The translations under genes and the position numbers were made by a program. A DNA stretch of 64,000 bases. Source: Asterochloris sp. CNOR1. Its lineage: Eukaryota; Chlorophyta; Trebouxiophyceae; Trebouxiales; Trebouxiaceae. Shown piece by piece: positions 1-63,986 of this stretch. The DNA lies in NCBI GenBank assembly GCA_963969365.1, contig OZ017757.1, positions 2,294,001 through 2,358,000 of the forward strand, written 5' to 3'. A model generated the notes under the pieces. It made no database searches and was not told where the DNA came from. It saw only the letters and a list, made by a program, of their open reading frames with translations. Each line of letters opens with the position of its first letter. Positions within the stretch are counted from its first letter, which is position 1.

Positions 1-2549
1 AGCTGCAGCAGCAGCTGAGGCACAGCCAGGGTGAGACTGCCAAGCTGCGGGACTGGCAGGACATCACCAAACAGGTGCACGCAGACCGCATGCAGGAGGC
101 AGGGCAGCTGGCGCAGGCAGAGCAGGCCAAGCTGCAGGCCCTGGTGCATCAGAGGTGGGCTGGTTCGTCGACTTGGCTTGCAGGCCTTATGCGGCATGTC
201 ATGCCTCTGCAGCATGCCTGCTGCCCAGATGAGCAGCCTGTTGTGGAGTGACACACATGAGGGCCGCTGCTCAGCATGGGCTCCTGGTGCAGGGGCGGGC
301 TGCCTGCAGCTGTGTCAGTGAGGTGGTCCTGCTCACACAAGTCCCCCAGACCTCTGTGACTGCCTCTGCACAAGCTGCACATCCATACAGTCCTTGCTTC
401 AAGCGTCTCTCTGAAGTACCACCCATGGCAGGGAAGCCCCCTGAGACTGCCACAATCAGGTGTGAGCAGAAGTCGGAAGCTGGCTTTATTCTACTTCATG
501 ACCCAGGTCATTGGCGGCCACAGCAGCCCACACTGAGCCTGCAACAGGACATGGCCTGCAGGGATCTCCAGCTGGAGCGCTGGCGAGCCGAGTTGACAGC
601 CCTGCAGCATCAGCATGATGCTCGGGGGATAGAGTTGGTGGCGTCCAGGCAGGAGCAGCAGGCCCAGATGGCCAAGCACCAGCAGGCACAGGCGGCCACC
701 GCAGAGCTGCAGGTGTGCAGGGCTGCTGCTGGGAAGCCAGGGAGGGAGCAGTCCGTGTGAGATTCTGCTGAAGTGTCTGCCGTGCTGTCAGGCAAGGTCT
801 GCTAGCTTGTGACAGGCAGCTGAGCTGGACTGGGGATGCCGCCTGCACTGTGTGACAGGCACCGAGCTCTACCCCGAGAGGCCCCACGGAAGCAACATGC
901 AGGCATGACATTTGCATCGATCACCTGGCACAGGAGCAGGTGGCAGGCATGGCTGGACTGTCTTGTCCGGCAAGGCAACATCTGATATCAGTCCCCACAA
1001 GGTCCATATGGTGGCCCTTAACCCCCATCAAGCAGCAGCTGCCACCTCAGCACTTGCTGCATGCCCCTAGCCACACTTCCTGTCTGGCGCAGGGGCGGGT
1101 GGCCGAACTACAGCAAAGGGCTGCTGAGCGGCAACAGGAGCACAGCCACCTGCAGGAGCGGATCAGGCAGCTCCAGCTGCACGTGGAGCATGTGCAGGGG
1201 GAGAAGAACTTGGCGCAGGTGGTCAGCAGGCAGGAAGCGGCCGCAGAGGTGGCGAGTCTCAAAGCCAAGGTGCTCTGCTGTGCATGTGGCACTCATCTTG
1301 CTTCTGCTGCATCTGCATGGGGGTGGTCTGGCCTGGGCAGCCTGTCATGCAGGTAGGAGTAATTGGCTGGGACAAAAGCCCTCAAGGGTCAGGTGCTGTA
1401 CACGGGTGCAGGTGGCATGCTTGCGGTCACCAGCTCTGCATGTCAAGCGCAGCAGCTGGATGCTGCACGCCCTCACATCGTCTGACTGCTCTCCAAGCGC
1501 TGCTGGCGTGCCTACTATGTGGTGGGCAGGTGGATGACCAGGGGGAAGCAGGCAGCCGCCGCGCAAAAGGATGCAGCAGCCAGGTCTGCCATCTCCAGCC
1601 TCTGGGTGTGCATGGTGTGCAGGCAGCTGAGTCTACCATGTCAGACGTCGTCTGGCGTGCTGTGCAGGCAGCTGACGCCCAGAAGGAGGCTGCAGTGAGA
1701 TCTGCCATTGCAGACGGGTGGCAGCGCGAGATGCAGCGCCTGGAGGCGCAGCTGCAGGACCTGCAGCATGAGCTGCGCCGAGAGCGCGAGCAGGTGGGTT
1801 AGCAGGCAGCAGAGTGCTGCTGGCCGGCCATGCGGGGACTGGGGCTGTGGGGGCTGGTCCTCAGTGGTGCAGTGGGTGGTTCCGTGGCTGCAGTGGCATC
1901 TGCCCGTGCACCGCCTGTGCAGCTCTGCCAGGAAGGGGAATGGGGACTGCAGCACCAGCTTGGCAGTGAGCGGAAGCAGGTGGGTCAGCAGACCCACCTG
2001 CTGCCGGTATTGACATGGGCAGGGGCTGCCTGCGCTGTGCCATATCCAGTGTTGCTGCTGCTGGCATGGGGGCTGGCTGAGGGTCGTCTTGAAAAGTCCA
2101 AGCTTGATTTGCGTACTGGACAGCATATCCTGGTAATCTCAGCCATTGCTGCAAATCCTGGCGTTTGAGAAGCAGCTAGGATGCTGCAGGCTCAGCTCAA
2201 GCAAAGGGAGCTGGGGCAGGAGGTTGCCAGGCTGGCACATGAAAGCGTGAGGCAGGCTCGACTGAAGCCCACCAGATACAATGCACCACGGCAGTCACCG
2301 CCGCCTGAGGTCAGCAGAATGCTGCAGCCAGCTTCTCCTGAGGCCAGCAAGCCGCGACAGCACACTCCGCCTGGAGCCAGCAACAGCCCACTTGCAGTCC
2401 GCCAACCAGCTGCAGCTGCCAAACCTCCTGCTTGGCCAAACCCAGAAGGCAGTGCGGCCATCAAAGCTGGATGGAGCCTTCAATTGCCCCCCCAAGACAG
2501 CAATGCTGAGCTCGGTACAGGATCCAGGAACAGTAGGAGGACGCGATGA
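1..2549 (+). CDS. coiled-coil protein, 3' part of a multi-exon gene
   Basis: The window opens inside this gene. Exons supported by splice signals and heptad-like Gln/Glu/Ala/Leu composition are about 3-154, 538-712, 1093-1269, 1668-1793 and a last exon from about 2176 to the stop at 2549. Phases agree for the first four; entry to the last exon is unresolved, so another exon may lie near 1800-2170. The protein is a long helical coiled coil (for example LQDLQHELRREREQ at the end of the 1668 exon). It ends in a Pro/Ser/Gln-rich basic tail without coiled-coil character. No enzymatic motif is visible, so a structural or tethering role is all that can be suggested. The 5' part lies outside the window. 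The introns contain degraded copies of the 1668-1793 exon on both sides of it. Confidence 0.6.
1549..1600 (+). repeat. degraded copy of the 5' edge of the 1668 exon
   Basis: Positions 1549-1600 match 1662-1713, the acceptor plus the first bases of the next exon, about 113 bp upstream. Both start with CAGGCAGC. Translations are AQKDAAARSAIS in the copy and AQKEAAVRSAIA in the exon. It could also be an extra or alternative exon. Confidence 0.65.
1948..1999 (+). repeat. degraded copy of the 3' edge of the 1668-1793 exon
   Basis: Positions 1948-1999 match 1758-1807, the end of the exon plus its GTGGGT donor, about 190 bp downstream. The copy reads LQHQLGSERKQ where the exon reads LQHELRREREQ, and it keeps a donor-like GTGGGT. 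Confidence 0.6.
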
Positions 2550-3043
2550 ATGCTTGCTGTGTTGTACTTCATCTTCGAGAAAAGGCTCAAGCAGCAAGCC
2601 TTGAGTTGCCTGCCCTTCACCACAAGTGCCTGATGGTTGGTCTGACAAGTAGTTAATGAAAAATCGTGTCTGGCAGTGCCAGACCCAGGGTTAGGTCAGC
2701 ACTCCCTCATGCAGAGTCACCAGGGGTCACTGACACTGTCTCACTACTGTTGACTCTGAACCAGGGACCCAGGCTGAGACACTTGGGGTAAGCGTCAGAC
2801 AAGACAGTCAGCCTAGTATTGGCAGACAGGCAGCCATGGCGTGCACATTTTCGTTGCAGCATTGATCTTTCATGTGCCAGGCCTTCCTCATTGCCTTTGA
2901 CAGGCAGCAGCCAGCCCTGATCAAGCTCAAGCAGTCCAGCACAGGTGAGGATAGAGCAATCACACAACTTTAGTGGCAGCATGTGCTCACCTATTGCGGG
3001 GCTTGACCCAGACCTTCGTAGGTAGAAATGCACTTGCTGCACT

Positions 3044-4216: not shown

Positions 4217-4500
4217 TCACGTGAAGCCCTCCATTAAACGAAACTCTATGCCGCTTGTAGCCAGCGCTGCCAGCACATTCTGCTGCAACAGGAGGTGCAC
4301 GCGCCGGCTGTCTTATCTGGCCTGCGAATTCATAAAAAGGTGGTGCCGCTGTGGCCCGAACCGGTCTAGTCAGGCGTCAGGGCTGGCCTGTCAACCGGGG
4401 TGGGCAGGCCTGGCACAAAGTCAGTGCGGCTGGGTAGCTTTGCTGACGCCGAGGCAACAAATGATCAAGGACAATGGCCAGGAAGCTGTGCAGGCTGGAG

Positions 4501-4545
4501 AAGAAGGTCATGACATTTATAGGTCATGACATTTTTGGTTACCCG
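4501..4545. promoter_or_regulatory. direct repeat upstream of the F-box gene
   Basis: GGTCATGACATTT occurs twice, at about 4507 and 4522, 15 bp apart and just upstream of the ATG at 4560. Each copy contains the palindrome TCATGA. It lies in the intergenic stretch 4217-4559 between the two divergent F-box-like genes, so it could be a protein-binding site. There is no direct evidence for this. Confidence 0.3.
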
Positions 4546-4559
4546 GGGAGGACCAGCCC

Positions 4560-5659: not shown

Positions 5660-6947
5660 AAAACAGCAGGGTACTATGTAATGGGGTGGGTCCAGAACAA
5701 GAGCTTCTTCCAGTTGATTTCCTTGGTACACCGCGGGGAACACATAGGCTTCTGGCCTGAGACTGCTTTATAGATCAAGACAGTCTGCTAGATGGGGATG
5801 TGAGCACCAGGAAGAGCGCAGCTACTGATGGCGCCCACTGTGGCCTCCCAAAGTCATTCCCCAAAGATTGGCACCTGCATCCGATATGGAGCTGCGGTTA
5901 CACTCCAGCAGGGGTTCCTGTCTCAGACTGGAGCTGCAAGCAAGCACACTTTTTGTCCTGCAACAAGTGGTCAGGTCAGAGCGGGAAAGCACCCGCCCCA
6001 TGCCCATGCACTTCCTGGCCAGGGCACCTCTGCAGTACTCCAGTCCCTAGACCTGCTTGTGGGCCTGCTGCTGCTGTCTCTGCTGCAGCGTCCAACTCCT
6101 TGTGCAAGCAGCCACTGCTGCCACTCTCAAGTCAACACTGGCTTTCTCCATGGTGGTGCCCGCCTTGTAACACATTGATTGCTGCTCATCTCACGCCTGG
6201 CAATGCCAGCGAGGGCCACTGTCCTCAATTCTTGCTCCTCCATCAGTGCATCAGTGGTGCCGCTGTCAGGCTCAGCGGATGCCTGCTCAGATGTGTCCAC
6301 TGACAGCGTGAGTCTGTTGGTGCTGGCTGGCTCAGCAGCATGGCACACCCGCTTCCTGTGTGTGACTGCGTGGGAGACGCCATGGGTATCTGGAGGCCTG
6401 CCAGGGTGTCCTGCTGTGCAACCTGTCAGCCTCCTCCCCTTGCTGCTGTGCCTGGCCCCTGGCATCCTCTGACTTCAAGTGCAGGCCAGTCAGCCCTGTC
6501 CCGTGGCCATGGCAAGCTGAATCCCCATTCCGCTGCGATTGCCAGGCAGCAGCACAGGAATGCAGGTGCCTGCAACTGCTCAGCTGCAGGCGGCCACGTC
6601 ATCCTGCGCATCGGCAAACATGTCTGCAGCAGCCCCTTGCCGGCGCTGGCAGCTACTGTCGCCCTGCCTGCCGCACCTGAGCATAAGCCTCTACAAAAGA
6701 AGGCAGCCAAGCCAATGCTGTGCGTACCAGCAATGGTTTTGCTCAACACTTCCACAACCACAAGTTTGACAGGAACATCGAGCAGGTGGCCTGGCAATGC
6801 TGCCTGGGTCTGTGTTGGATTGCCTGCTGACAATGTGGATCCTACGAACGCATACCACTTGATGTTGACTTTTGACTTTGGTCAATCGGCCGCTGTGTGC
6901 CGGCATCAGGCCCCTGTTCAGCAAGCCGGATCCCCTGATGGCTTGGC
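5660..6947. other. intergenic stretch with no assignable gene
   Basis: No recognisable protein or clear exon chain. Two open minus-strand stretches look weakly coding: about 6180-6310, rich in Glu/Ser/Asp, and about 6700-6880, with hydrophobic DVPVKLVVVEVL. Neither has neighbours in phase or a family match. The end of this stretch must hold the PIG-A promoter. Confidence 0.4.
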
Positions 6948-9900
6948 ATGCGTCACAGGGTGCTGATGGTCAGCGACTTCTTCTATCCCAATGCTGGTGG
7001 CGTCGAAACCCACATATATCAGCTGTCACAGTGCCTCATGGCAAGAGGAAACAAAGTGATCGATGCAGCGTGCAGAGGTGCAGGTTATGAATCCTGCCAG
7101 ACTGCATGGATCTCAGCAGCCGCACTGCTGCAGGTGGTTGTCCTGACCCATGCCTATGGTGACAGAGTGGGCGTGCGGTACCTGACCAATGGCCTCAAGG
7201 TGTGGCAGATGGGTCTGTGAGGCTTCCGCGTTGACTAGCCCTCGGGCACAGTCTGTGACGCGTGCCACCAGTAGTTGCCAAGCTCTGTGCGGCTTTCCAA
7301 CCTCAGCACGCAACCTCAGCGCACGGGCAAAACAGCTGTGCAGGCTCCTGTACTGATTGGCAAAGCCTTGACAACCACCAGGGGCCAACTTGTGCTCCTG
7401 CAGGTCTACTATGTGCCGAGACTCCCCCTGGTCCTGCAAGTGGTGGCCCCCACCATCTTAGGCAGCTTCCGACTGGTGCGCGACATCATACTGCGGGAGC
7501 GCATCACTCTGGTGCACGCCCACCAGGCCTTCTCTGCTCTGGCCCACGAAGCGGTGCTGCATGCCAGGACAATGGGTTGCCAGGTGCGCAGCATTGTGTG
7601 CTGCAGGCTGCCACTTCACGGCTGCAGCTTAGGCATCATATCGGCGCACTGCTGTCAGCTGTCATGCTGCAGGCTGCCATGGCATCGTGCTGCACGTCTC
7701 AGACTTACAGATCATGACAGTGCAGCAGGCAGCCACTTGGGGCCGGCCTGGCCCTATCTCTGTCAGTCATTCCTTGATGAGAGCCTCTTTGCTGTAGGCC
7801 GTCTTCACAGACCACTCCCTGCTGGGCTTTTCAGACTTCAGCAGTGTTGTGATGAACAAGCTGCTTCAGTTCACTCTGGCTGATGTGCATCAGGTGAGTC
7901 ACTTCATTGCCTGAAGTTCTGGTTTGACATGGACCCCTTGCTGTGCATGATGGGGTCAAGGCAGCAGCACAGCAGTGCTTTCCATGAAAATGGGGCACAG
8001 CAAAGGCTGCTTGAGGCTTGCTCTGATTCATGTGATTCAGGCGCAGAAGTTGTGAGTCAGGCGCAGAGACCTGGCTGCAGGTCATCTGTGTCTCACGCAC
8101 CAGCAAGCAGAACACAGTGCAGCGCGCTCAGATCCCGCCCAAGCGAGTCTATGTCATCCCAAACGGTCAGTACATAGGCTGGCAGTGCTGCGCGCCTGCA
8201 TTGCTCAGGCAGAGAGTCTCACATGCACTGCAGTTGTTATCTGTGCAATCCGGGCCAAAACATGCCAGCCAGCAAAGCAGTCTGCAACACTGACTGCCTG
8301 CGTGTTGAACTCAACTGATTCAGGCTGAAGCCTGCATGCCCTGCCTGCAGCTGTCGACGCCACTCGGTTCAGGCCAGACCCCAGCCAGGCGCCCAGACAC
8401 AGGATCCAGATCGTGGCCCTCAGCCGCCTGGTGCACCGCAAGGGGATCGACCTGCTGGCAGTCACCATCCCAGAGTTCTGTGCTCGCCATGCTCATGTGG
8501 ACTTCCTCCTTGGTGAGAGGGATACTAGTTCTCCTGGCTCTGATCATCATGGCGGCTTGCAGCACCCTGAGGCCCTCATCTTGTGAATTATGGGCCCAGG
8601 TTTAACGGCTTGCGCAGCACAGAGCATTTGCCTGCTACTCCGGCAATAGGGGGCGATCTGCTTCTGCCTCCCAATGCAGCATCAAAGTGTTTGGGCAGAA
8701 CGGGCATCTTTGCAAACCTGGCTTGCATTGGCTGTCAAGTGATAAGCCTCAGGCCCCAGACATGCTGCAGGGGGTACCAGCTACAAGGCAGCCCTGCTGC
8801 ACAGCATGGGAGCACAGCAGAAAGGCATCGCATGCAACACAATATCGTTGCAACGACAGCGCAAGTAAGACCTACCATGAGCTTCCAGGAAGGGGTGCTG
8901 CTCAGCACGAATTCTTTCTAGCTGCTGCTTTCAGGTGCTGGGCCTCAGGCATTTCAAAAGCTGCAGGCGTCAGTGGCCCCAAGGCAGCTCTGTTGTGCAG
9001 CATATTCCGGCCGCAGGTGGAGCACACCATCACAGATTTCTGTATCGCTGGACCTGACGTGATGAGCTGCTGCAGGCGGCGACGGCCCCAAGGCAGCCCT
9101 GCTGCGCAGCATGGTTGAGCAAGAGGGCCTGCAGGAGCGGGTCAGGCTGGTGGGGGCGGTCCCCCATGAGAAGGCACGGGACCTCCTGGTGAGCTCGGCA
9201 TCCCCTGCCAGCGCGTTTTGGGCGTCATGTTGTGCATAATAGGGCACGATGCTTGTGCCAGAAGGCATTGGCTTGACCCAGGCACGAGCAAAGCTGTGTA
9301 CCCTGTGGCCCCCTGGCAGGCCATCAGCCCCCTGCCGGGCGACTCAATGTTGTGAGACAATGTGTTGGCCCCCATCCGGCAGCAGGCAACGCACTCTTTG
9401 TGGCCTGCTCAGTTTGCCCTGCTCTTGACTTCCTTGGTGCAGGGAGATTTGGCTGGCAATTCCAGCATCTTGGTGTCAGCATGTATGCACCAAAAGCTGC
9501 ACATCTTCTCGGGCCTTGCTGGTGACATCTGTTTAATCTTTGTGCCAGCAGATTGGAAACCACCTTTCCAACCTTTCAGGTCGCACATTGCTGCAGTCGT
9601 GCTGTTGTGCAGGTCCAGGGCCACATTTTCATCAATGCCTCCCTGACAGAGGCCTTCTGCATGGCTGTTGTGGAAGCAGCTGCTGCAGGGCTGCTGGTTG
9701 TGTCCACAGCTGTGGGTGGCGTCCCAGAGGTGAGGGTCTGCAGTCCATGGGTGACTCTGCCAGAACAACTGTATTCCTGAAGCGCAAAAGCCTGATCGCA
9801 TGAGACAACCTGCTCTGGACCCACTGCCTTGAGGGCTGAGGCCGCATGAGCACTGCGCCAGCATGCTGAGCTTATTTGCCATATATCAGCTCTGTGTCGA

Positions 9901-10488: not shown

Positions 10489-10507
10489 CACTGTTGGCTA
10501 CATGAAT

Positions 10508-18200: not shown

Positions 18201-21200
18201 CGTCCTCTGGGCTGCAGGTGCGCCCACCCCCCTGCAGGATGCAGCTGACAGTACAGCAGGCCCCTGGACTTCCCACCACGTGGCTGCGAGCCCTGCAGAT
18301 GCTGAGATGCATGGTGGCGCAGCCGTGGACAGTTTGTCCCATGCTCAGGCACCCACAAAGCAGCAGCAGAGGGCTGGGCCCCCACCTGTCAGGTGTGGAC
18401 TGTCATGCGTGCTGGTGCCAAATTGCCCCAGCATGGCCACTGAGCTGGGGCAGCAGGCACAAGCCCAGCGCCGTGGCACTGCTGGACAACTGTCAACTTT
18501 TCCACCGCTGAGTTGGGATAAGTTACGCCACTGTGTGCGTCACCTTATACAAGCTCAAGACAGGAGATGCTGATCGGGCCTCCTGCTCTGCACAGTGACA
18601 GTGCTTGTGTCCTGCCAAATTAATGCCTGAGTCCTTGGGGCCCATGCTGTTGCTGCATCTACACCTACTGCGGGTGGCCCTGGTGCCAGAAGGGGCAACC
18701 ACAACAAGCTTAACACATTGCAACATGTGGCCTTCCTGGTTTCACTGCTTGGCTGCATGCAAGTATGTTCTGGACCTCAAGGGGGGCCTTCGTGTCCCAG
18801 GTGCCAGTCAGGCTGCTGGACGGCATCACAGCGTCTGCACTGCATTCGCGAGTACCACGAAGGTGCGGACGTGATATTGTGTTGTGCAGGCATCCAGCCA
18901 AGTTGCTGGATGGCATCTGGAGTGCCCGACCGCACCACCCAGCTGCAGCACGCGGCACTCAGTCCGGGCTCAACCAGTGGAGTGGGCAGCCGAGTAGCAC
19001 CTACGTTGGCCCGCACTCCCCTCCGCCTCTCAACAAGCAGCCCCCCGTGCACACCCCCATCTCACAGCTCTCACAGGGCCTGGCCCAGCAAGGGCTTGGC
19101 AACACTGGTGCGGGCCCCCTCCAGCCATCTTCTCATAGCCAGCACTGGTCTGCCCCCTCGCCTGCCCTCCTGGCAGGGCGGCAGTGGCAGCGGCAGGGCC
19201 AGCCAGGCCCAGCCTTGGGTGGCACCCAAACCCCTGCGGATGCAGTGGCAGCGCTGGGTTCAGGCTCTGCTGAGCGGCCATCGATGGACGCTGCGCGAGA
19301 GGGGCGCCCGCAGCACCCAAGCGTGGTGCTGCTGCGCCCGGCGCCCTGCTTGGACCCTGTGCAGCAGCGGCGGAGCATGGGCGCCTGGGGCCAGATGCGC
19401 CGTCTGGTGCAGCGTCGTGGGGCGGCGCGCCTGGTTCTGGAGGACTTTGAACCCTCGCAGGTCAGCCGGTTGAAGTCTGGCAGCATGCTGCGAGGCAGGC
19501 TCAGAATTTGCAGGGCATGCTCTGGTACTGAACTGGTCTTGGTGATTGGTCATGCCTGGCTGCCCCCTTACAGTTGGCGAACATGAAGACTGATGGGCAG
19601 CTGTTGTGTCAGACTCTATACTTTGGCTCTTTGTGGTTGGCCTGATGTGGTGCATCATGATGGCACCGCGCCAGCTCAGTGTGTGATGTGTGTGGCGCTG
19701 CCCGCCCCTGCTTGACTGAGCACAATGCACATCTGGGTCTGTGTCGTAGGATCTGCCCCCTATCTTGCACAAGAAATTACCTGGTGCAGGGCTCTCTGCT
19801 GCACAGCCTGGCTCACAAACGCCGCAGTGCCCTTGTCATTGCTGCAATCCCAGTCCAGCTGCACAGCCGTCCATGCTGTGCAGGTCACACAGGCAGCCCC
19901 ACCAGGACGCATCAGGCGCAGCTCCCGAGCTCGTGCCCTGGGAGCACAGCATAACTGGCGGCGGCGCCTCGAGGGATACGACTCGTGAGTCACAAGACCT
20001 GTGCACAGCGTGTTGCTGCAGCACAATGCATCACGCCGACCTGCAGCCCTGTTCTGGCCAATCTTTGCTACCAACATGTTGCAAGTGCTGACTTTCAGGT
20101 CGATTGGTCCTCGCAGGGTGCCCAATTGCTGGGCATTGTGGCTTGTGAGCCCTGCTGCACAATCTGCTGGTGAGCTGCAGTGCAGACAGGGCGACAGAGC
20201 TCTGTCTGCAGAGCAGCGCGCTACCGTGGCACTGCAATGCAAAGGATCTCCATATGGGACACCGATTTGCCGCTGTAGTTGCACAGCTCTGCAGGCGCCC
20301 CGGACAGACAGTCTAAGAGTCGGGCTTGCTCTGTTTGACCTCTTGTTCACACACCTCGACTGGCAACCTGCAAACAACTGGAACGTGCTGCACCGCAGGG
20401 GTCACCTTTTGCACGGCTCTCATCTGCATGGGCACAATCATGCCGTAGTCCTGCGCATGCTATGCTGCCATACCCAAAGATCATGAGCTGCTGCGCTGGC
20501 AAACCTCTTGACGGCCCACCTGTCACCCCGCAGGGAGGGCGATCACGTCGAGGTCCCGCGAGTGGCCTCCCGCTACCAGGCAGAGCTTCCCAAGCTGCTG
20601 AACCGTGGACCTGGGGGCATAGACGCCTCTGAGCAGAAGTGGAGCTACCCACCCATGGCGCCAGCAGGTCCGTCAGGGCACCTCACATGGGAAGCAGTGG
20701 GCCTCCATGCCGACGTGTCTGCAGCATGCTCCTGTGGGCTTGCTTGAGGCCACGGCACAATTTGATGCTTCTGGGCCAGAAAGCAGAGCCCAATCATGGG
20801 CCAGCAGGGGTGTTGCTGCAGCTCCTGCAAAGCATGGGGTGCCAGCAAATGTCATGCCAGTCCGTTCTTCTGCAACCCCTGTGGGCTTGCTGGGGGCCGC
20901 ATTGGCATATGGGATCCTCTCTGAGCAGCAGCAGACGCACTCACCTGTGGCACCAGCAGGAGTCAGGCACTGTCATCCTGATGAAGTCTGCAGCATGCCT
21001 CGCTGGGCTTGCTTGTGGCCACACTTGCCTGGCGCAACAAGGTTGCTGTCCATACAGTTTGCATGTCATATCTCCAGGTAGATGGTGCAGTCCTGCGTGG
21101 GGCGCTCTCTGAAGGTGTGTGGCAGCTTCGAGTGGCATTGCATCAACTCCCTTGCTGTTGCCTGCACTTGACAAATTGGGTTTGCCTGACCTGCAGTGTG

Positions 21201-40800: not shown

Positions 40801-42029
40801 AGGCAGGGCCAGGGCTGCCCAGGACAGTGCTATGCTGGAAGGAACATCAGGCACACAGGCAGCTGGTGGCCAGCAGGCCTCACACTGCAACAGCTTGCAG
40901 GGTAGGCAGGTCACGATAAGTGGCTTGGCCTCTGTGCATGCATGGACCCTGCTGTGCTCACATGTCGCTGGCTTCCAACCAGTGATGATGCCTTACAGGC
41001 TTGTGAGACAAGCAGGTTCTTCCCTTCAGCACTATAATCTGGGAGCTTGCTATGCTCATCTGCTATTGCCTGCCGCCTCGTCAGCTAGTCCACCCCAAGC
41101 CACAGGTCACAGGACACGCTCACCTCTTCTTGACCTCCCACCCATTCAGCTTCTCCAGGATGAGGCCCTCGAGGACGCCATCAGCAGCGCCTGCCACCAG
41201 AGCCTCCCCAGTGCCCATGAAGCCTGCATGCAGCCATGTCTACCCTCAATCAATATGCAAACAAAGCAAGCTCAAAGTTGCCAGTCCAGGACGGTGCGAC
41301 AAGCACAAAGAGTTTGAAGCCCTCGATGAAGGGGTGTGCAAGGCCGCACCTGACATCTCGTCCCCGTCGTCACCCAGCGTGTTGAGGTGCTGCCCAATGA
41401 TCCACTCGCGCTTGAGCCCGACATCGGCGCCCGTGATGGGGGCAGCAAACTTCATCTTGAGCACCTGCAGGCATGGCAGGGGCAGGCTCCTGCAGGGGTG
41501 CGAGCAGTGCAGGGGCAGCCTCCTGCAGGGGTGCGAGCCGCGCAGGCTCCTGCAGGGGTGCAAGCAGGGTGTTGCAGGGATGTGTGGTCGTCTGCGCAGG
41601 AGCCTTATGTGAAGGCCTGATTGGCACCCGCATCCTAACTTTCTTGAATACCTGCAGGTCCAGGATTCTCATTTGAACCCAGAGCAGGCGCCTGCTCTGC
41701 CAACAGCAGGTCCAGCGGGCCGTGTGCCTGCATGCCTGCCCTGCCTCCAAGTGCTGTTGCATGCAGTGCAGAGGAGCCATCGGACTACTCGAACTTGCTG
41801 CCGTGGGGGCCCCATGAGCAGATTGAACAGGTCCTTTCCTTTGTGAGCTCCTTGACTGCTAAGTCTGAGCAGTGCGCACCTTGAGCAGCTTTGGAAGGTC
41901 CTTCCCGTCGCTGTCCTGCAGCTCGAAGATGGCTCCCTGGCTGCCGCCAGCCAGCTCCTTGCCCACAGTGTACTGCTTGCTCAGCTTCACGCCCTCCTGG
42001 ACCTCAAAGTTCTTGGGCACAACAATGAC
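37801..42029 (-). CDS. divergent protein kinase (HHD loop, DYG instead of DFG)
   Basis: Minus-strand exons in phase: 42029-41880, 41464-41350, 41223-41124, 40627-40570, 39915-39729, 39406-39200, 38878-38829, 38776-38650 and 38228-37801 (stop). The 5' exon with the start codon was not found and should lie between 42030 and about 42950. Kinase signature: glycine loop YTVGKELAGGSQGAIFEL, a VLKMKFA strand, catalytic-loop-like GFVHHDLRIQNIM, and a metal-binding-loop equivalent FKIIDYGHAALYG. The usual HRD Arg is replaced by His and the DFG Phe by Tyr. The essential Asp and Asn of the catalytic loop and the Asp of DYG are present, so activity is possible. The C-terminus is basic (RGRGKGKPWQRKG). 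Substrate unknown. At least three introns hold copies of neighbouring exon edges. Confidence 0.72.
39455..39665 (-). repeat. two degraded copies of the DYG-encoding exon
   Basis: On the plus strand the exon contains GTCGATGATTTTGAAGTGGT (39367) followed by ACTTGGCAGGCG. Copies read GACCGATGACCCCAGAGTTG then TACTTGGCTGGCG (39462-39500) and GTTGTCGATGACCCTGGGCT (39628-39650), the latter also preceded by GCGTCTCAAGCAGCGCAGGG matching GCGTCCCATACAGGGCCGCG. Both lie upstream of the exon in transcription order. Confidence 0.75.
40185..40325 (-). repeat. degraded copies of the intron end at the 39915 exon
   Basis: AAAGACCTGCACAGG(C/T)GG.(G/A)GAGA.CCCTGTCAG occurs at 39910 (the real exon start and acceptor, read on the minus strand) and again at 40189. 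A weaker copy, GAGGACCTGAACAGGTGGG, is at 40301. All lie in the same intron. Confidence 0.75.
40675..40845. repeat. tandem duplication, about 98 bp unit
   Basis: GGCAAGC(A/G)GGACGCTAGGCAGGG(T/C)CAGG followed by GCCCAGGACAGTGCTATGCTG appears at 40690 and again at 40788. The copies are nearly identical, so this duplication is recent. It is inside a kinase intron, next to the 40627 exon. Confidence 0.9.
41465..41580. repeat. short tandem repeat, about 24-30 bp unit
   Basis: Four to five units of GCTCCTGCAGGGGTGCGAGC or CCTCCTGCAGGGGTGCGAGC at 41488-41570, immediately upstream (in transcription order) of the 41464 kinase exon. On the minus strand each unit contains a pyrimidine-poor CCTGCAGG. 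Confidence 0.8.
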
Positions 42030-43052: not shown

Positions 43053-46000
43053 ATGGGCATTCTGCGTCCACAGGATGTAGAGCGGCGCATGAGTGCGCCA
43101 CCACGGCCAAGGGGGCCGCAGGACCCCACTGTGGCTGAGCAGCTCAGTGCACAGGTGATTTAGTGGGCTCATTGTCCTTCTCCGGTAGTCTCCAGCTCCT
43201 AGTTTGCGGCGGTCTGCAAGAACAATGCTGGCTCTCAGAGTCTCACTAGCCTGCATGTCGGCTGATTATCAATGACTGAGTGCAGCAAATCTGTAGGCTG
43301 CCTTCACGCCCCCGCCAGGCTGTGCAGGCAACAGTCCTCCTGGCAATGCGAGATGCTGAGCATTCATCAGCTTCAGGACGCATTGAGCTGGAGTCTGTCT
43401 GCAGACTGCATTCAGCCCCAATTTCTGAAGGAATCGCTCCTGCCTGCATGATCCCACAGGCTTACGTCGCTTTACCAGGCAGACTGCTGGCTTTTCTCCG
43501 CAGCTCTGCCTGTCATAGCTCCGCCCAATGCCTTTCAGCTGCTGTCACATGCACAGGTTGCAGCCTGCACAGTATTCCTGCTTGTGTGCAGACGCAAGTG
43601 GATGCGGAGCATCCTGATGAGCCCAAGCCTGCTCCGCCTGGGGCAGGGCGGCAGCTTCTGGTGGTCATGCGGCACGGGCAACGCATTGACGAGGTGCGCG
43701 CACTGCTGCGACTGTATCGCTGTGAGCTCTCTGTGCTGTGGCTGCTGGTGTCTGAGTTCAGGGCGGCAGCGTCTGTTGGTCATGTGGCAGCAGCGCTGCC
43801 CACGCTGCTGCCACTGCCTTATTTTCCCCGGCTGGGGCTGCTCCTCTGACGTGCTGTGGCCCCTGCTACCATCAGTGCCATGTCATCCAGCATTTGAGCT
43901 CAGCATGGCAGCTTTCTCATACACCCACTGCAGCGCATCTGAAGCAGGCTTCTGAGCAGTGTGACCAATGCAGGTTGACCCTGAATGGCCGGCCCAGGCA
44001 CCACGCCCGTTTGATCCATATTTGACAGAGTATGGAGAGAAGCAGGTCAGTCCGGCTGCATGTACTCATGCTCTGCTCTTAGCAAAGGAAGCAAGCCTTG
44101 TAACGCTGCAACCTGCTCATGCAGCTTCTGCTGCTGCCTGGCCTGAGCAGCGGGTCAGTCAACTGCGCCTGCTTATTGAACTAATTAAAGGCACGTCATT
44201 CAGCGTAAAAGCCAGTCGGCAGTCCTCTTGCTGCTGCTTGGCAGCAGCTGTGCCAGTGTCTGCAGTAATGTGGCCACTGACCTTGCCTGTACTCACCCTG
44301 CAGCCAGCCTTCTGGAACGTTGCGCTGCTCTTGCTGTGCAGGCCCGCGATAAGGGACCCCATCTGACGCAGTACGCCATCAAACATGTATATGTCTCTCC
44401 CTTCCACAGGTGGGCTATCCATAAACATTGCTCTCTAAGTCAGCACCAATGTTGGTGCTGCCAGCCAATTCTGTGGCCCTGTAAAAGATGGTAGATGCAC
44501 AACAGGATCCTGCAGTGTGCTGGCACCATGGCTGGTGCCACTGCTGGTCAGGCCTGGTGTTCTCTTGCCCTTGTCATGGCTGCCCGTCTGCACAGCGATC
44601 TCTACTAGGCCAGCTGCCGTTGCAGGTGTGTAATCTAGTTCAGAAATGCATGGTTGTGCCTGCAGGCAGCCCAGCTGTATGGGCAAGCCACCTAGCCAGC
44701 TGCCTCAATCTGTGCAGGTGCCTGCAGACGACACTGCACGCTATGGAGGCTGGACCTAGAATACCCCCGGAGAAGTGGACCGTCACCACTCAAGTCTGTG
44801 AGGTGCGCAGCCCCTGCCTTGGTGGCCGCTTCCAGCCAGCAAGGGCACTTGCTATGCTCTGGGAAGGCAGAGCTTCTCAGGCTGGAGCTGCATCTCCCAA
44901 AGCACTTCTGGGCAAATGTGTGTTGGGCCCTGAAGCATGCCACCTTTTGCTTCTCCCACCACCTTGGCTCCCTGTGTTAATGCACAAGTGTAGCTGTTTG
45001 AGCTGGGCTGCTAATCAAAGGCAGCTGGCGAAAGCCACTTGACAACCTGATTACATGGCATTTGGGTAAGTAAGCATGGGCAAGGATGGGCAGTACAGCC
45101 ACTGGCTTTATAAAAGGGCCAGGAGGAGACATTCGATGCTACATGATGTAGCCCCTGAACCTGCCTTTACAAGCTCCGCATGCTGCTGCAACTCCTGATT
45201 CTGCACGCCTGGTCAGGAGGTGAATTCCCGTCTCTGGTAGGCATTTCATCCACGGCTGAGCTTCCCACCTCACCACGCAACACATCTTTCTGCCCCTGCA
45301 GCTCTTGGACACGCATGTCATGGGCACAACCTGAATTCGCTTCTACAGCTAGCCCGTCAACCACGCTAAGCTTCTCAGTGCCACCATGATTGTGATGCCC
45401 CTGCAGCTCTGGGACTTGCACAACCTAGACTAGAAGACCCTGTGCCCAGGGCGCTGTCGTTTCAAGGAAAGGCCCTGACCTCGCCTCTCAATGCAGTCTG
45501 GTGCCCCTGCAGTTTTTGAACCCCCACATCATGGTGAAGAAGGGAGCGTCTGTCCCCGCCGGGCACATTAACGAGTGGTTCTGGGAGGGCGACGTGCGTG
45601 ACCACCTGCTGAAGAAACTGCCTAAGGATGTCGCCAGGAGGATGCAGATTGGACAGACAAAGTTCTATCGCTTCCCTGAGAACCTTTACCAGTCGCGTAA
45701 GCGTTACATCAGATCCTTCCAGGTGGGATGCTCACTGAGACACTGTCTTGCCTGGTTGCCTGGCTGGGCTTAGCAGAGGACATCATGCAAGTGCGTGGGT
45801 GGGTCTGCTCACACGAGTTGCGCAAGGACATTGCTGGTGACGTGAGGTACCTTTTGAGTGCTTCCCTGGGAAGCTGTGCCACTCACAGGTCGTTCCCTGT
45901 GGTTCACCAGTTCAGGTAACAGCTTGAAGTCTGCCGCATGCAGCTGCACTAAGCAGGGCCAGGATCAATCTCAATATGCGGGTCCACCTGCACATGATTC

Positions 46001-47617
46001 AATAATGCCCTGGCTGGACATTGCCGGGAAGATACTGATTGGGCAGGCAAGCTTTGGATGCTTCCCTGAGGAGCTGTGTTTTCCAAGTTTGTCAACATTC
46101 ATTGTGGCTTGGCTCTGCCAGGCTCGCCAGCATCGAGGTGGCGTTCTGCAATGCTTGCTTGGAAGCAGCTGCCAATTCAAGTCAAGTGTTGGCTGGGCAA
46201 CTGGCTGTGCAAGCTGCTCTTACTGTTGGCTAATGTGTGCATGAATTGGCTGAAAACTGCAGGACAGTTTGGTGTCATCTGCTGCAGGTCAAGGTGTCTC
46301 TGCAGCCTCCTTCCTGTGTGGACCTGATTGATGCCAGGTCCAGCCCTGCTGGCAGCCCTTTGGAAACCCCCAAGGCTTCACTGGCCACTCAACTGTGAAA
46401 GCAGTGCAACGCTTGCATCACAGGGATTGCTGTTCTGCTTTGCAGGCGGTTGCTGGTGAGTTCATGGGCTGCTGCAGCATGCCACAATCTGATGAGGGTC
46501 CCTTTGCTTGCCCGCAGGAAATTGCCGATGAGGCCCAGGGGGAGAACGTGCTGGTGGTCACGCATGGAGACGCAGTGAACGCGTCTGTGTCGCGGATCTG
46601 GCCCTGGGCCATTGTGCACCCTGTGACACACACGGGCTACACGGTGGCCTCCAGGGAGCGCAGACCAGGTCAGCAACTGCAACAGGACTGCGAGGACAGT
46701 GCTGACGTGCGATGGCACTGCCATGACGGTGCTACAGGATGCACACTGGTGCACGTGGTGTGCATCTTGTCTGCAGCTGGGGTGGTACGCGACACCCAGG
46801 CTGCTGATCCGTCACGTGCACTGCCTCCAGGGAGCGCAGACCAGGTCAGCAACTGCAAGAGCACTGCAATGACAGTGCTGCCTGCAATGACACTTGTATG
46901 ACGGTGCTACAGGATGCACACTGGTGCACTTGGTGTGCATCTTGAATGCAGCTGGGGTGATACGCGACCACCCAGGCTGCTGATCGGTCATGTTCACCGA
47001 GCAGCTCCGCACCAGGGTGCACACCTGCTCTCTGTTGCAGATGGCAGCTTAAAATTGCACAGCGCAAGGACTGCACCAGTCTTTAGGGGTGCCTGCATGG
47101 CACATTGTCTCCTGATGCCTGTTGCTTTAACGAGCCACTGCATCTCAAACTGTTTGCAATCAGCAAAAAATTGGCCTCCCGTTGAATGCTGCCGACTTCT
47201 GCATTTGTCTCCTGGTGAAGCTGGCAGCTGGAGGTGATCAGCATCCAGGTATCTGTGCAGCCTGGCGCTGCCTCCGCTGCAGATAGACAAAGGTATCGGT
47301 GGTGCATGAACACATGCTACTTCGTGGTGTGCATCACTAGGCATATCTGGTTGCTGGGTGCAGATTGCAAGTGCAGCAGGTGGAACCATTCCCAATATTG
47401 TCTGGCCTGGCTCTGCAACCCTTCTGTTGCTCCTGCTGCAGATGGCAACTGGAGCAGATGGCGCATGGACACCCGCAGCGGCGAGGCTGGAGTGTGGTGG
47501 CGCACTGAGTTGCAGCCGGCCTTTCATGTATTCAAGGCGGGCCAAACCATCTTTGGCGTGGGGCAGCACATTATTGGCGGGGTGCTCCACATTATTGGGC
47601 AACTAAAGCCATTCTGA
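43053..47617 (+). CDS. histidine phosphatase superfamily (phosphoglycerate-mutase-like)
   Basis: Eight exons join in phase: 43053-43154, 43592-43693, 43974-44045, 44342-44409, 44718-44802, 45513-45722, 46518-46668 and 47442-47617, giving 322 residues. The phosphoacceptor motif VVMRHGQR is in exon 2. Exon 4/5 carries VSPFHRCLQT, the conserved Arg-containing second motif, and exon 7 has the second catalytic His in LVVTHGDAV. The ATG at 43053 is followed by an Arg/Pro-rich leader and no signal peptide. The final exon is enriched in Gly/His/Ile repeats (VGQHIIGGVLHIIG). The fold suggests a phosphatase or mutase acting on small phosphoesters or phosphoproteins; substrate cannot be read. The insert between exons 5 and 7 (FLNPHIMVKKGASVPAGH) resembles the longer eukaryotic members rather than glycolytic enzymes. 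Confidence 0.85.
45290..45430 (+). repeat. two degraded copies of the exon 6 start
   Basis: Exon 6 begins GTGCCCCTGCAG then TTTTTGAACCCCCACATCAT. Upstream copies are CTGCCCCTGCAGCTCTTGGA with CACGCATGTCATGGGCAC (45292) and ATGCCCCTGCAGCTCTGGGA with CTTGCACAACC (45396). Both keep the full acceptor. Confidence 0.75.
45830..46090 (+). repeat. two degraded copies of the exon 6 3' half
   Basis: Exon 6 contains GATTGGACAGACAAAG then TTCTATCGCTTCCCTGAGAA. Downstream, 46038 reads GATTGGGCAGGCAAGCTTTG with GATGCTTCCCTGAGGAGCTG. A weaker copy near 45855 reads GAGTGCTTCCCTGGGAAGCTG. Both are in intron 6. Confidence 0.7.
46640..47000 (+). repeat. tandem duplication carrying the exon 7 donor
   Basis: GCCTCCAGGGAGCGCAGACC followed by AGGTCAGCAACTGCAA occurs at 46648 (end of exon 7 with its donor) and again at 46827. 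ATGACGGTGCTACAGGATGC and GTGTGCATCTTG then recur at 46723 and 46897. The unit is about 175-180 bp and highly similar, so the duplication is fairly recent. Confidence 0.9.
47265..47330 (+). repeat. degraded copy of the last exon start
   Basis: 47267-47310 reads GCTGCCTCCGCTGCAGATAG ... GGTGGTGCATGAACAC. The real exon reads GCTCCTGCTGCAGATGG ... AGATGGCGCATGGACAC from 47428. Acceptor and exon start are both duplicated, about 165 bp upstream. Confidence 0.65.
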
Positions 47618-47842: not shown

Positions 47843-49336
47843 TTATCTGTCCAAACTTACAGCAAACTCATTTGTCTTGCTGCCATCCCTGGCAAGCCGA
47901 GGAGGAGGGTCTCCAAACTTCTTCCGCAGCTGTGGCTCAGCAGCTGGAGGATCTATAGCCTTGGCGCACATGAACGCCACTTTAGGACTTGACTTCTTCC
48001 TGATCACCTGCAGACACTGCTAGATTGAGGCGAGAACTGGATTGAACCTGTCAGATTATCTCACCTGTAGACCCAGTGCTGCCAGAGCGTTTTCAAAGTG
48101 CTGCCAGGTCATGAAGGGGGAGCTGTCCAGACAGCGGAGCGGTAGCATCACAAAGGCAAGCCCTCCCGGGCGCAGGTGCGCTCGCATCTTGCGCAGCATG
48201 TCGCCTCGCTGCGCTGCTGCAGCAACAGCCACACAGTCTTTGAGCAGCATATGGAGCTATCCCCGCCACAAACACAGCAGCAAGGCTACCACCTCAAGCA
48301 GAATGAATCGGTGGGGGAAATGGAGCTGTCCTGAGTCACCAGGAGATTCTGACTGTTTGCACCAGTCAGCAGGACGCTTGGTGTCCAGTGCTCACCTGTG
48401 GGCATGCAAATTACAACACCGTGCTGCACACGACAACATGGCAGTAGGACCAAGGGGGCAGGAATGTGATTATCTGCATTGCTCTGCCGCCGGAAGCACG
48501 CTTCTGCAGCCATGCAGCCGCCCAATGTTCACCTGTGGGAACGCAATTGAGGACCATGCTGCACACTACGACCTGGTAGTGGGGCCGAGGATGCAGAGAA
48601 AGGAAGTCCTGCTTCTGGATGCTGGGCAGACAGGGGCGGAGATCAATGGCTCTTGTTTCCAGCCAAGGGATGCTGAGCAACTGCGTATTGACGGCTCCGA
48701 TCTGCAGCAGGGCAGCGGTTGACAGCTGTGGCGGCTCATCATCCCCATGATACAGCTTCCTGAATGAGGCACGACACACACACACACACTATGCCGCTTG
48801 TCTGAGGAGAAATGCATGCAGCACTTTTGCGCAGCCGGCAGGCAGAGCACAGTGGGTGGCGGGCAGTGTGCACCCCAAGCACCACCAAGGCAGCCCAGTC
48901 CTAAGTTGAGGCAGGAAACTGCCCATTTTGCACTCTCAGCTGTCTGCAACACGGCACCAGACCTCACCTCCAGCAGGGGCAGAGGAGGCTGCCCCTTGGA
49001 CGGGCGCAGGCCCAGCTCTGTGAGGACTGAGAACACCCACTTGCTGACGCGGTGCTTGGATGTTGTGAGCTCTGAGGCTGCCTGGTAGGCAGCCCTGCCT
49101 CCCAGCTCTGACACCTGCTGGTCCAGCTTCTGTGCTTTGATTGCATCTCCGCTTGCTGCTGCCTCCTCTGCCTGCACCAACCATTCCCTTGGCTGTATTC
49201 TGCCAGTCAAGGAGGGGCTTGCACAGATTGCCACCTGGTGGGTGAGTTTGTGGAATGAGCTGGTGAGAAATCGAGCCCTCTTCATGCTCTTCACAGGGGC
49301 CACCAAGGGTTGTGGCTTGCGTTTCTTTGTGCCCAT
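47843..49336 (-). CDS. BMT2: 25S rRNA adenine-N1 methyltransferase (BMT2 family)
   Basis: Four exons join in phase on the minus strand: 49336-48968, 48701-48533, 48216-48065 and 48007-47843, giving 284 residues. Diagnostic stretches of the Bmt2 family: SELGGRAAYQAAS, a SAM-binding start PLPLLEIGAVNTQ, then ETRAIDLRP and FLSLHPRPHYQVVVCSMVLN with the VPTG that usually precedes RG.ML (here AAQRGDMLRKM). LRPGGLAFVMLPLRCLDSS follows. Yeast Bmt2 makes m1A2142 in 25S rRNA in the nucleolus, and the N-terminal KKRKPQPLVAPVKSMKRAR is a plausible nuclear/nucleolar signal. The ATG at 49336 starts MGTKKRKP. It lies divergent from the quinone reductase gene with 383 bp between starts. Confidence 0.88.
48368..48450 (-). 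repeat. degraded copy of the BMT2 exon 2 3' edge
   Basis: Plus-strand GTGCTCACCTGTGGGCATGC at 48387 matches ATGTTCACCTGTGGGAACGC at 48525, followed in both by ACC(G/A)TGCTGCACAC.ACGAC.TGG.AGT. In translation (minus) MPTGEHW vs VPTGEHW. The copy lies downstream of the exon in transcription order and carries a duplicate GGTGAGC donor. Confidence 0.85.
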
Positions 49337-52700: not shown

Positions 52701-53090
52701 AGTCCGGGAGCCTTGCATTATCTAATGGGTGTCCTGCTGCAGGTGTGTGTCAGTCGCCTGCTCAGCAGTATACTGCACTGAAGCACTGGTGGCCGCACCA
52801 CCTTAGAAATGGACAGCTCATCTTCCTCTGTCCCGCTTCAGGTGGTTGTCGGGAACCCGCCCAGCAACATCATGCAGGATGCTATCATGGCCTCCCCCTT
52901 TGGCGTGGTCATGGCAGGCAAGGAGTCCGCCCCCAGCCAGCCAGCGCTCAATGGGACAGAGGTCAAGCTGGCCTATGGAATGGGGGAGTGGACCGCCCAG
53001 ATCGCGAGAATGCTGCACGACGCTGATGTGGACCCACACCTGGAGAACCACAACCCCCGCCCTGCGGGTGGCCTCGGCACCAGCATCTGA
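49720..53090 (+). CDS. flavodoxin-fold NAD(P)H:quinone reductase (WrbA/FQR1-like)
   Basis: Five exons join in phase: 49720-49806, 50467-50574, 51564-51701, 52301-52408 and 52842-53090, giving 229 residues, near the usual length of about 200. The order matches plant FQR1: AVIYYSLHGVLVTLANIIAA (flavodoxin phosphate loop), IPGAEVTVYRVKD, LEADALIIGAPGR.GGMCGEM.LFLD, GKVGSAFTSVGGTGRGFGGH, and C-terminal SPFGVVMAGKES. Family members reduce quinones by two electrons using FMN. Several FMN-contact positions are atypical: HGV replaces YGH in the phosphate loop, GAPGRQGGMC replaces GFPTRFG.M, and TGRGFGGHE replaces the GSQGGGQET region. It could therefore be a divergent or non-catalytic paralogue. Exon 2 and the last exon are both echoed nearby. 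Confidence 0.85.
50578..50672 (+). repeat. degraded downstream copy of quinone reductase exon 2
   Basis: GTGAAGGACCCTG starts both copies (50497 in the exon, 50582 in the intron). They share GAGG..TACTGGA or CGGAGTGCTGGA and GTCATCACTGAGAA, 85 bp apart. The copy begins right after the true donor and lacks an intact donor of its own. Confidence 0.9.
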
Positions 53091-53863: not shown

Positions 53864-56800
53864 GTGAATTGTGGTGGCTCAGACCCATCCGCGACAATTG
53901 TGCGGGTAACAGACAGGCAGAAATGCGGTGTCAAGCGCAAGGCGGTGCCAAGCGCAAGGCGGTGTCAGGAAGCACAGCGGGCAGCAAAACTGCCCAAGCA
54001 TTTTGAGGCTGAGCCTGGGCAGGCGGGGGCCTCTACGCGACCTAAGAAGATGGCGAAGCGGACAGGGGCACATCAGAAGCATGCCATCCCACCTGGTGCA
54101 GATGGGTCTGCACATTTGATGCCTTGCTGCTGCCCATGGTATGCATGGGAGGGTAGCATGCAGTGCGCAGCAGCGTGACCAGCAAGGGGAGACCACCAGA
54201 GCCTGTGAGTGGAGCATGTATGTGGCTGAGCTGGGACTGCTCCGCAGTATGCCAGCCTGGCCATGTCTTGGTGCATCCCGCAAGCAGCCCATCTCTCACA
54301 CCCTCAGGGGCCTGCTGCTGCTGAGCAACTGGAGGACTTACATGGCACACGGCTGCTGCAGGCCAGCCAGGCCCGAACACTGAGGGCCAGACCAACCTCT
54401 CTTCAGCAAAGCCTCCTACTGGGGGGGGACTGCCTGCACCAGTGCCCGAGCAGCAGCAGCAGCAAGCAGAGCAGGCTGCCGAGCCTGCCAGTACATCTGC
54501 TACTCCTGCTGGCCACGCAGCACAGCAGTCTGCATTTGCCAAGAAGGACAGGATGGAGCAGCAGCTTGAAGAGCTTCAAGCCAAGCTCGCTTTTGTACAG
54601 GCTGCTCTGCAGCAGCAGGTAGAGCAGCAGGCGCTGGAGGCTGCTGGCAAGCAGGCTGCCAAGCACGAACAGCAGCAGTCCAGCAAAAGATGGAGGAGCT
54701 GCAGGCGGCGCTTGCAGCCCTTAAGCAGGAGCGCAATGTTCTGCAGCAGCAGGTGCAGCAGCAGGCGCAAGAGGCTGCTGCCAGAGAAGCTACCCTGAAC
54801 GCTGCGGAGCAAGCTCGGCAGGCAGCTGAGCAGGAGAACGAGGCCCTGCAGTTGGAGCATGCTGCACTTGAGAAGGTCTGCAGCAGCCTGCAGCGTCAGC
54901 TGGCTGAGGAGGCTGCCAGCAGGCAGGCAATTGTGCTGGAAAGCGATACTCGGCTTCAGCGGGCAGAGCACCTGGCGCAGCTGGTGAGGCAGCAGGAGCA
55001 GGAGGCTGCTGCCAAGGAGGAGCGGCTGACAGCGCAAGCTGCCGCCTCAAAGGCAGCACAGCAGGCTGCCGACGAGCTGCATGCTGGCCTGAGGCGCCAG
55101 CTGGCCGGGGAGAAGGCCAAGAAGGCTGCGCTGGAGGCCGCTGAAGTCGCCGGGCAGGCCCGTGAGGCACTTCAGCGCCAGGTGGAGGGGCTGCAGCCAG
55201 CGCATGCTGCGCTTGAGTCTGAGTGCACCAGCCTGCGGGCGCAGAAGGCACGGCTGGAGCGCAGGCTGGCTGACCTGCAGCAGCGCTTTTATGAAAACAG
55301 TGGGGCGGCTGTGCGGGATCTGCGGGAGGCACACCAACAGCTGGCACAGCAGTACCGTGAGCGGGACGTGCTGAGGGTCCAGCTCTCTGCGCTCACCCAG
55401 CAGCCGGTGCTGGCCACCCCACGAATTGAGCAGCAGCAGGCTGAGCTGCAGCAGCTGCAAGCTCAGGCTGCGCTGAGACAGCGGCTGGCAGCTGAGGGTG
55501 CAGCGATGGGGCACCAGCATCAGCAGGGCAACTCCACCCTGAGTGGGCAGGTGAGGACCAGGCCCTCGGATGCCACTTGAGCAACATGCACTGCTTTCCA
55601 AGTGTCACAACTGTCATGGATGCTGCATGGACTCAGGGATGGCATGCACCAGCACTCACCGGTGCACTTGCATGATTAAAGTGCTTCCAACTTAGCAGGG
55701 TGGCCCAGGGCCTTCTGAGCTTCCTAGCCCCTTGTAGGGTGGACACGGGGCTGCCACATGGTCTGAGCATGAGCCCGCACCAGCTGCCGCCTCAGCAGGA
55801 GCATGGGCCACCCAGGGCGCACCATCTGAGGCTGTGCACCACATGGAGCAGCTTGGCAATGCTGGCCAGCAGCAGGTGAGGTGCTCTGTCCTCTCAGTGG
55901 TGGGGTGACAGGTGTATTTCTTGTGTGGTTCTGGCCCTTGGGATGTGTGGCAGGCCTTCTGGAGCAGAGCGGGCCGGGCAGGGGTTGGGGTGTGCCACCG
56001 GGCATCTGCCAGCCAGAAGAAGGTGGGACTCGTGCCCTCTTGGTGGTCAGTTGACAGGCGTGTTTCCTTCTGGCCCTCGGGATGAGTGGCAAAACGGGCA
56101 GTTTTCTTGTGCAGACACGCCCAGGCAGGGGAGGGGCCGTGAGACCTGCCTGATGCAAGCTGCTGCAGGAACAGGGTGTGGGCGCCCATCATCAGTAATC
56201 CCAAGACCTGTGTCTCTGCCAAACTCCTGCTGTGCCCCTGCTGCAGAGTATGGGGTGGCCGCAGCCGACCCTGCACAATCTACTCAATGGCTGGTTGAGC
56301 GGACCCATGCTCCCAACCCTTGACCCGCAGCTGATGCTGCTGCACCACCACCTTTGCACCTCTGCTGCGGCAGCAGCTCTGAGCGGCCAGGGCGGCCAGG
56401 GCCTGTCTAACAGCCAGCAGCCGATGCATGGCGGCCAGGTGGGACACTATGAAGGTCCATGCGTGCTTGTGACAGTGTCAAGGTTGCCATCGGCGTCTCC
56501 TGTGGTGCAGAATGCTTGCACTGAGGGGTTCTGCTGCAGAGTTCATGCTGCGTAGTCTTGGCATGGAGCATCTCCAATTTGCAGCCTCGCCTTCCAGCGA
56601 TGCTCCTTGTGAGTCCTGCTCTTGCCCTGCAGGCCAGGGCAGGGCCAGCTGTCAGGGCTGCACAGCATGATGCAGCGTCAGCCACCCAGCAGGCAGCAGC
56701 TGAGGCAGCAGAGCATGACGTTCTGGAGCCGCTGCCTGCTGCAGCCCCTTGCAAACAAACAAAGAAGGTGAGTAAGGCGAAGTAAAAGTTCATGTTCATG

Positions 56801-63986: not shown

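Follow-up and report, generated by a model that had tools for sequence, protein, structure and literature searches.

In tandem exon duplication a copy of an exon comes to lie beside that exon, and other processes on record include paired-nick duplication, seen in plants, and the patch-mediated repair of rice. The copies described below differ from duplicated exons in that only the edge of the exon is copied and the copy decays. Closer to them is the potato RdRp gene, where the excerpted text of PMC4974935 describes a tandem duplication that runs from the 3' end of an intron into the 5' part of the exon after it; an 83-bp intron-internal duplication that did not alter the gene structure is mentioned there as well. 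For Drosophila, the excerpted text of PMC2891723 describes tandem duplication of exonic proto-splice sites together with intron sliding, and its authors remark that the footprints of old duplications fade. Related duplication work (Rogers 1989, Gao and Lynch 2009, Hellsten 2011) is cited in the excerpt of PMC3443670. Within the open-licence literature, partly among the best 10 of 480 matches, we found no description of exon-edge echoes as a way in which introns grow throughout a genome.

The window is a stretch of 64,000 nucleotides (C12:2294001-2358000) from a genome of 56.38 Mb in 21 contigs. Together with the 100 kb directly upstream, 100 kb of C1 and 50 kb of C6 it makes up the 314 kb sampled, and all rates given here are those of three regions of one genome, not genome-wide values. 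Genes were modeled with our own self-training gene finder, run without annotation, which returned 50 models, several of them fusions of neighboring genes, and 639 introns with a mean length of about 302 bp. The consensus it learned from these introns was CTGCAG/G at acceptors and CAG/GTGAGC at donors; the acceptor consensus is very strong, with T, G and C at -5, -4 and -3 each above 90%. Seven of 10 window-region proteins or protein parts had Pfam matches (PIG-A, histidine phosphatase, Bmt2, FMN reductase, PEX11, cNMP-binding and pyruvate kinase), and neither Rfam at gathering scores nor ARAGORN gave a match within the window.

A sequence-only reading of the window had proposed that introns carry decayed same-strand copies of adjacent exon edges, and had suggested aligning introns with their own flanking exons. 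This comparison gave a clear excess of matches. For 531 of the 639 introns (80-1500 bp, flanking exons of at least 30 bp), alignments were made between the intron and its own 50-bp edge (30 exonic plus 20 intronic bases) and, as the control, between that intron and 200 edges taken from other introns. At a score of at least 100, 33 of 531 acceptor edges and 17 of 531 donor edges matched, against 0.86 and 0.33 expected from other introns' edges. Reversed edges of these introns gave 0 acceptor and 0 donor matches at that score, and reverse-complement edges gave 2 donor matches (0.39 expected) and 0 acceptor matches (0.73 expected), so the claim of same-strand copies stands against all three comparisons. 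The first or last 50 bp of an exon taken alone matched its own intron in 21 and 19 of 486 cases, and exon segments 50-100 bp from the edge did so in 2 of 359 and 2 of 351. Random intron-internal 50-mers matched their own intron in 10 and 10 of 438 cases (about 0.4 expected). Taken with the edge counts, this means that introns repeat themselves in general and that exon edges share in this, with acceptors exceeding the intron interior.

Self-alignment of 485 of the 639 introns (80-1200 bp, exons of at least 40 bp, at most 100 bp of exon per side) gave the same picture. Local direct pairs at a score of at least 90 numbered 166, compared with a mean of 1.4 between different introns, and 100 of the 485 introns held at least one. 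At a score of 110 there were 111 direct pairs, versus 0.2 between different introns and 6 against the intron's own reverse complement. Inverted self-matches are also in excess: 46 reach score 90, compared with 1.4, although each may have entered the count twice. A looser gap scoring was discarded, as its alignments ran through whole regions and yielded 1608 pairs at score 120 versus 1484 in the control. A scan that ignored gene models found 394 raw pairs at score 100, compared with 2 in the control; removal of overlaps left 215, of which 65 were intron-intron, 122 touched an exon edge, 22 were exon-exon and 6 fell elsewhere. From the 166 direct pairs, 153 were kept, the remainder lying outside three filters: 50 on the acceptor side (33 introns), 33 on the donor side (29 introns) and 70 internal to introns (50 introns). 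The acceptor side therefore outnumbers the donor side in pairs and in introns, as had been claimed. Exon-edge echoes occur in 56 of the 485 introns, and in both the edge test and the self-alignment the copies are direct in orientation and lie at the same locus as their original. The echoes in the window, with intron-internal duplications noted as such, are as follows.

46647-46821 and 46823-46997, plus strand: 176-bp tandem duplication, the clearest edge echo, spanning the 5' splice site 46668/46669.
40667-40747 and 40761-40842, minus strand: intron-internal duplication in intron 40628-41123; score 285, identity 0.865.
8763-8809 and 8960-9003, plus strand: two acceptor echoes of 9068-9114 in a PIG-A-like gene (PF08288 and Glycos_transf_1 matches), exon start 9076; scores 155 and 150, identities 0.829 and 0.84.
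35412-35462, plus strand: exon-start echo of 35625-35675, junction 35611; score 175, identity 0.843; starts 13 bp inside the exon and so lacks the splice site.
23740-23809, plus strand: acceptor echo of 23835-23905, junction 23855; score 150, identity 0.732.
39973-40022 and 40181-40239, minus strand: two acceptor echoes of 39876-39957, junction 39915; scores 130 and 147.
45267-45323, plus strand: acceptor echo of 45478-45534, junction 45512; score 115, identity 0.701.
38838-38893, minus strand: acceptor echo of 38735-38791, junction 38776; score 110.
29268-29340, plus strand: acceptor-side echo of 29872-29944, junction 29864; score 115, identity 0.657.
52730-52799, plus strand: acceptor echo of 52829-52897, junction 52841; score 105.
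48385-48461, minus strand: donor echo of 48522-48596 in a Bmt2-like gene (PF11968), junction 48532; score 169, identity 0.74.
1947-1991, plus strand: donor echo of 1761-1805, junction 1793; score 135, identity 0.80.
23426-23492, plus strand: donor echo of 23179-23248, junction 23248; score 132.
43759-43789, plus strand: exon-end echo of 43644-43674 (31 bp), junction 43693; score 125, identity 0.903; stops 19 bp short of the splice site.
21613-21663 and 21671-21744, plus strand: donor-region copies of 21513-21563 and 21480-21552, respectively, junction 21513; scores 175 and 125.
2324-2383, plus strand: donor echo of 2291-2350, spacing 33 bp, junction 2309; score 110.
20919-20960, plus strand: donor echo of 20627-20668, junction 20667; score 110.
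39064-39120, minus strand: donor echo of 39202-39257, junction 39194; score 100.
56104-56160, plus strand: donor-side echo of 55957-56013, junction 56022; score 95.
34409-34454, plus strand: donor echo of 34215-34260, junction 34250; score 90, the threshold.

Two of these loci had been singled out earlier as near-identical echoes, and they fared differently. The pair at 46640-47000 indeed spans a donor (exon end 46668): Tandem Repeats Finder (TRF) gives a period of 176, 2.0 copies, 89% matches and 1% indels, and self-alignment a score of 660, identity 0.892 and gap 1. It lies outside the 33 donor pairs, the gene model having put an exon (46777-46844) on the second copy. The pair at 40675-40845 proved to be the intron-internal duplication listed above, with no exon copied. 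Similarity does not fill the range from near identity to the barely visible evenly, as no edge pair in the window apart from 46647-46997 extends over at least 100 bp with an identity of 85% or above. The window also holds a tandem array at 30246-30509 (38-bp unit, 6.8 copies) in a predicted intron that the model breaks with a 21-bp exon. Outside it, young intronic repeats at L010 ~7880-8602 include an adjacent pair (97% identity, period 91) and an outer one whose copies, 92% identical, are separated by 616 bp.

Other claims held in part or with qualification. Copies usually include the splice site, but not always: 43 of the 50 pairs at acceptors and 22 of the 33 at donors do so, counted as alignments that reach at least 4 bases into the intron at an acceptor or at least 2 at a donor. 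Against a proposed distance of 40-400 bp, 49 of the 50 acceptor copies lie 89-604 bp from the original and one at 34. As many as six copies per intron do occur, in a 649-bp minus-strand intron outside the window (L005 ~5760-6409; C12 ~2229760-2230409) where decayed copies of the next exon's start are spaced about 70-130 bp apart. Within the window, edge echoes in 16 of 87 tested introns, spread over 7 gene models of which some are fusions, are compatible with the nine or more genes claimed. As to a genome-wide scale, echoes are present in all three sampled regions but unevenly, in 41 of 233, 8 of 164 and 7 of 88 introns. Per kilobase of intron, edge echoes are commoner in the window's region (0.73) than in C1 (0.21) or C6 (0.43).

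The copies have lost the constraint of coding sequence. Over 3135 aligned exonic columns there were 759 substitutions and 28 indels, the latter biased low by the gap penalty. Exon-copy substitutions at codon positions 1, 2 and 3 were 230/1050, 234/1047 and 295/1038 (0.219, 0.223 and 0.284), and only 3 of 53 gap lengths were divisible by three, leaving 50 of 53 out of frame. Near-even codon positions and out-of-frame gaps indicate that coding sequence is not being preserved in the copies; neither codon positions nor gap lengths revealed the coding constraint expected of an alternative, duplicated exon, which disfavors the suggestion that echoes supply alternative exons. Judged by sequence, a role as decoy splice sites is plausible: 31 of 39 echo acceptors keep their AG, an upper view from a biased sample because alignments were chosen for similarity there, and 20 fall within the score range of the upper 90% of real acceptors.

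Echoes are tied to intron length. Edge pairs per kilobase of intron rise from 0 at 80-150 bp through 0.07, 0.18 and 0.51 to 1.08 at 500-1200 bp, and the share of introns with an edge echo goes from 0% under 150 bp up to 42% at 500 bp or more. The trend persists among acceptor echoes no more than 130 bp from the acceptor, a distance within which intron length gives no extra room: 0 of 112 introns at 250-350 bp, 8 of 95 at 350-500 bp and 14 of 76 at 500-1200 bp. With both junctions combined, such near echoes occur at 3 of 224 edges at 250-350 bp versus 19 of 152 at 500-1200 bp (Fisher p 7e-6), and the length trend has p 0.009 in the window's region and p 0.011 in the other two; exons missed in long introns could contribute, although the codon pattern argues against this. 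The proposal that introns have grown in this way is thus supported by the link between near-junction echoes and length. Detectable local repeats make up 13,269 of 158,355 intron bases (8.4%).

The best reading of these data, to which we give a probability of about 0.6, is that short tandem duplications arose across splice junctions, the outer site being kept and the inner copy decaying, a mechanism the sequence-only reading had also favored. Duplications of typically ~90-130 bp would arise inside introns as well as across junctions. Where one spanned a junction, the outer splice site would stay in use, leaving a copy of exon edge and splice site in the intron; the protein would be unchanged, the intron longer, and the inner copy free to drift without codon constraint. 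Where intron sequence was copied, both partners would drift and the likeness would be lost at twice the rate; old duplications would thus be recognizable mainly with a conserved exon as partner, and exon edges would stand out. In favor of tandem duplication, the drop from exon edges to segments 50-100 bp into exons is sharp (2/351, 2/359), and clean adjacent cases crossing a junction exist outside the window: A g11.i13 (gap 3), C g3.i12 (gap -3) and B g19.i25 (gap 11). That CAG slippage or microhomology drives the process found no support, with no shared run of 2 or more bases at the freshest junction, the one inspected by eye.

Targeting of duplications to splice sites would not be needed, since a model of uniform duplication combined with selection and exon conservation gives ratios of the observed order. 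With exon-only events removed and retention of the branch-point region required, six settings of the model gave acceptor-to-internal ratios of 0.18-2.58 (observed 0.71) and donor-to-internal ratios of 0.27-4.54 (observed 0.47). All six settings predict more donor than acceptor echoes, the reverse of what is observed. This counts against the tandem reading, as does the excess of inverted self-matches within introns. The rarity of copies less than 89 bp from the acceptor would follow if a tolerated duplication carries its own branch-point region.

The simple version of tandem duplication, acting steadily as first envisaged, is contradicted by the data. Simulation at a constant rate predicts far more fresh adjacent copies than exist, with adjacency in 87, 66 and 57% of acceptor pairs by identity class against 0/15, 2/19 and 3/16 observed. 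Adjacency (gap of at most 15) is seen in 5 of 50 acceptor pairs, and also at 46647-46997. Mean similarity just beyond the alignment is z 0.27 versus 3.21 expected (n=71), and z 0.52 versus 5.94 in pairs of at least 80% identity. The scarcity of adjacent pairs and this loss of likeness outside the alignment are the strongest evidence against the simple version. Simulated old duplications (d ~0.4 per lineage) or indel-rich decay (d 0.2-0.3) give gap and alignment-start distributions like those observed, so age or indel-rich decay could hide adjacency; we file the clear cases as tandem and regard the rest as likely. No simulated setting fits every measure, as the observed median score of 137 and identity of 0.75 exceed those of the old-duplication runs, while the aligned exonic parts, in which 759 substitutions stand against 28 indels, do not agree with indel-rich decay. 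We infer a tandem origin for the non-adjacent majority too, and use of the outer splice site; the age of the duplications is inferred likewise.

One alternative is non-tandem patch copying, in which a template switch during repair or replication carries 35-75 bp of exon edge, without flank, into the intron some 100-300 bp away. The non-adjacent majority of edge pairs fits this, as do the fall of similarity around acceptors to background by about -30 and +60 and the U test, which shows no flank similarity. The gap between copies is no proof of such copying, since third copies of an array also make large gaps (33870-34027; TRF). In the intronic flank [-55,-7], a window that overlaps the alignment in pairs reaching far into the intron, mean z is 1.52 at acceptors (se 0.33, n=49) and 1.52 at donors (se 0.47, n=32), whereas a simulated exon-edge-only copy has a flank z of ~0 and patches running from -12 into the exon give -0.11 to 0.11. 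Pure exon-edge patch copying is thereby disfavored, while patches with variable flanks remain compatible. Why copies sit at junctions rather than anywhere in the exon is left unaccounted for, and we consider patch copying unlikely overall. Comparisons between copies of multi-copy introns (34 in 8 introns, 15 of them from one) are too few and too dependent to settle the mechanism. If tandem duplications of old date had been refreshed in part by the exon through gene conversion, this would explain why the exon part stays alike and the intron part is lost; heterogeneous cases in which the intron part is the better conserved (21513-21663) speak against this, and it seems less probable still.

Two further explanations question whether the echoes are decayed copies at all. 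Echoes could be unrecognized or alternative exons, or products of mis-set gene models, and our own models, some fused and one with an exon on an echo (46777-46844), lend this some color. The near-even substitutions over codon positions and the out-of-frame indels speak against it. Nine of 10 proteins around echo junctions also have Pfam matches, and in 7 of the 10 the best match spans the junction (5'-nucleotidase, two junctions of one kinase, exportin-7, LCM, RNB and amidase); among the other three, one is without a match, one has a match ending 3 residues short and one belongs to a repeat family with its best stretch elsewhere. We regard this explanation as very improbable. Chance, or low complexity, would have strong splice consensus motifs recur in CAG-rich introns, and both motifs are strong here, but edges of other introns with the same motifs give 0.33-0.86 matches where 17 and 33 were observed, and the whole-sequence scan exceeds its control 394 to 2 at score 100. 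This explanation is the least credible of all.

Tandem duplication across junctions, if correct, has wider implications. Tentatively, and with the odds against so broad a claim, the long introns of this lineage may derive largely from waves of short duplications across and near junctions, every one of which left behind a strong decoy site; the conspicuously long introns of green algae may have the same origin. Most older copies would then be beyond recognition. The excerpted Chlamydomonas comparison (PMC8226300) calls the mechanism behind intron length unknown and probably ancient; the length link seen here, from 0% under 150 bp to 42% at 500 bp and above, points to a growth mechanism testable in sister strains. 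As a natural collection of aged decoy sites, the echoes could also reveal, through their distance and degree of decay, what the spliceosome passes over. They are a warning for gene annotation too, as our own gene finder set an exon on one.

Compared with known systems, these echoes depart from intron gain under the Rogers model, in which an intron opens with a duplicate of the following exon and closes with a duplicate of the preceding one; here the introns are long, and most acceptor copies are found 89-300 bp upstream of the acceptor instead of at the donor. Introners, as presented in the excerpt of PMC9860276, likewise change introns genome-wide by copying sequence, but they are dispersed copies of one family, whereas here the source is the adjacent exon; in the sampled regions, sharing between introns amounts to 1.4 pairs at score 90 against 166 within introns. 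The Drosophila cases, in the excerpt of PMC2891723, are alike in that a coding segment with splice signals is duplicated and one copy turns intronic; that set, with 7 such introns, concerns the origin of new introns and positions, whereas here existing introns grow. The potato duplication, in the excerpt of PMC4974935, made a new intron in one gene, while here intron number stays the same and introns lengthen in many genes. Single junction-spanning duplications and duplications of splice signals are known; in the open-licence literature covered, we found none described as a common mode of intron growth.
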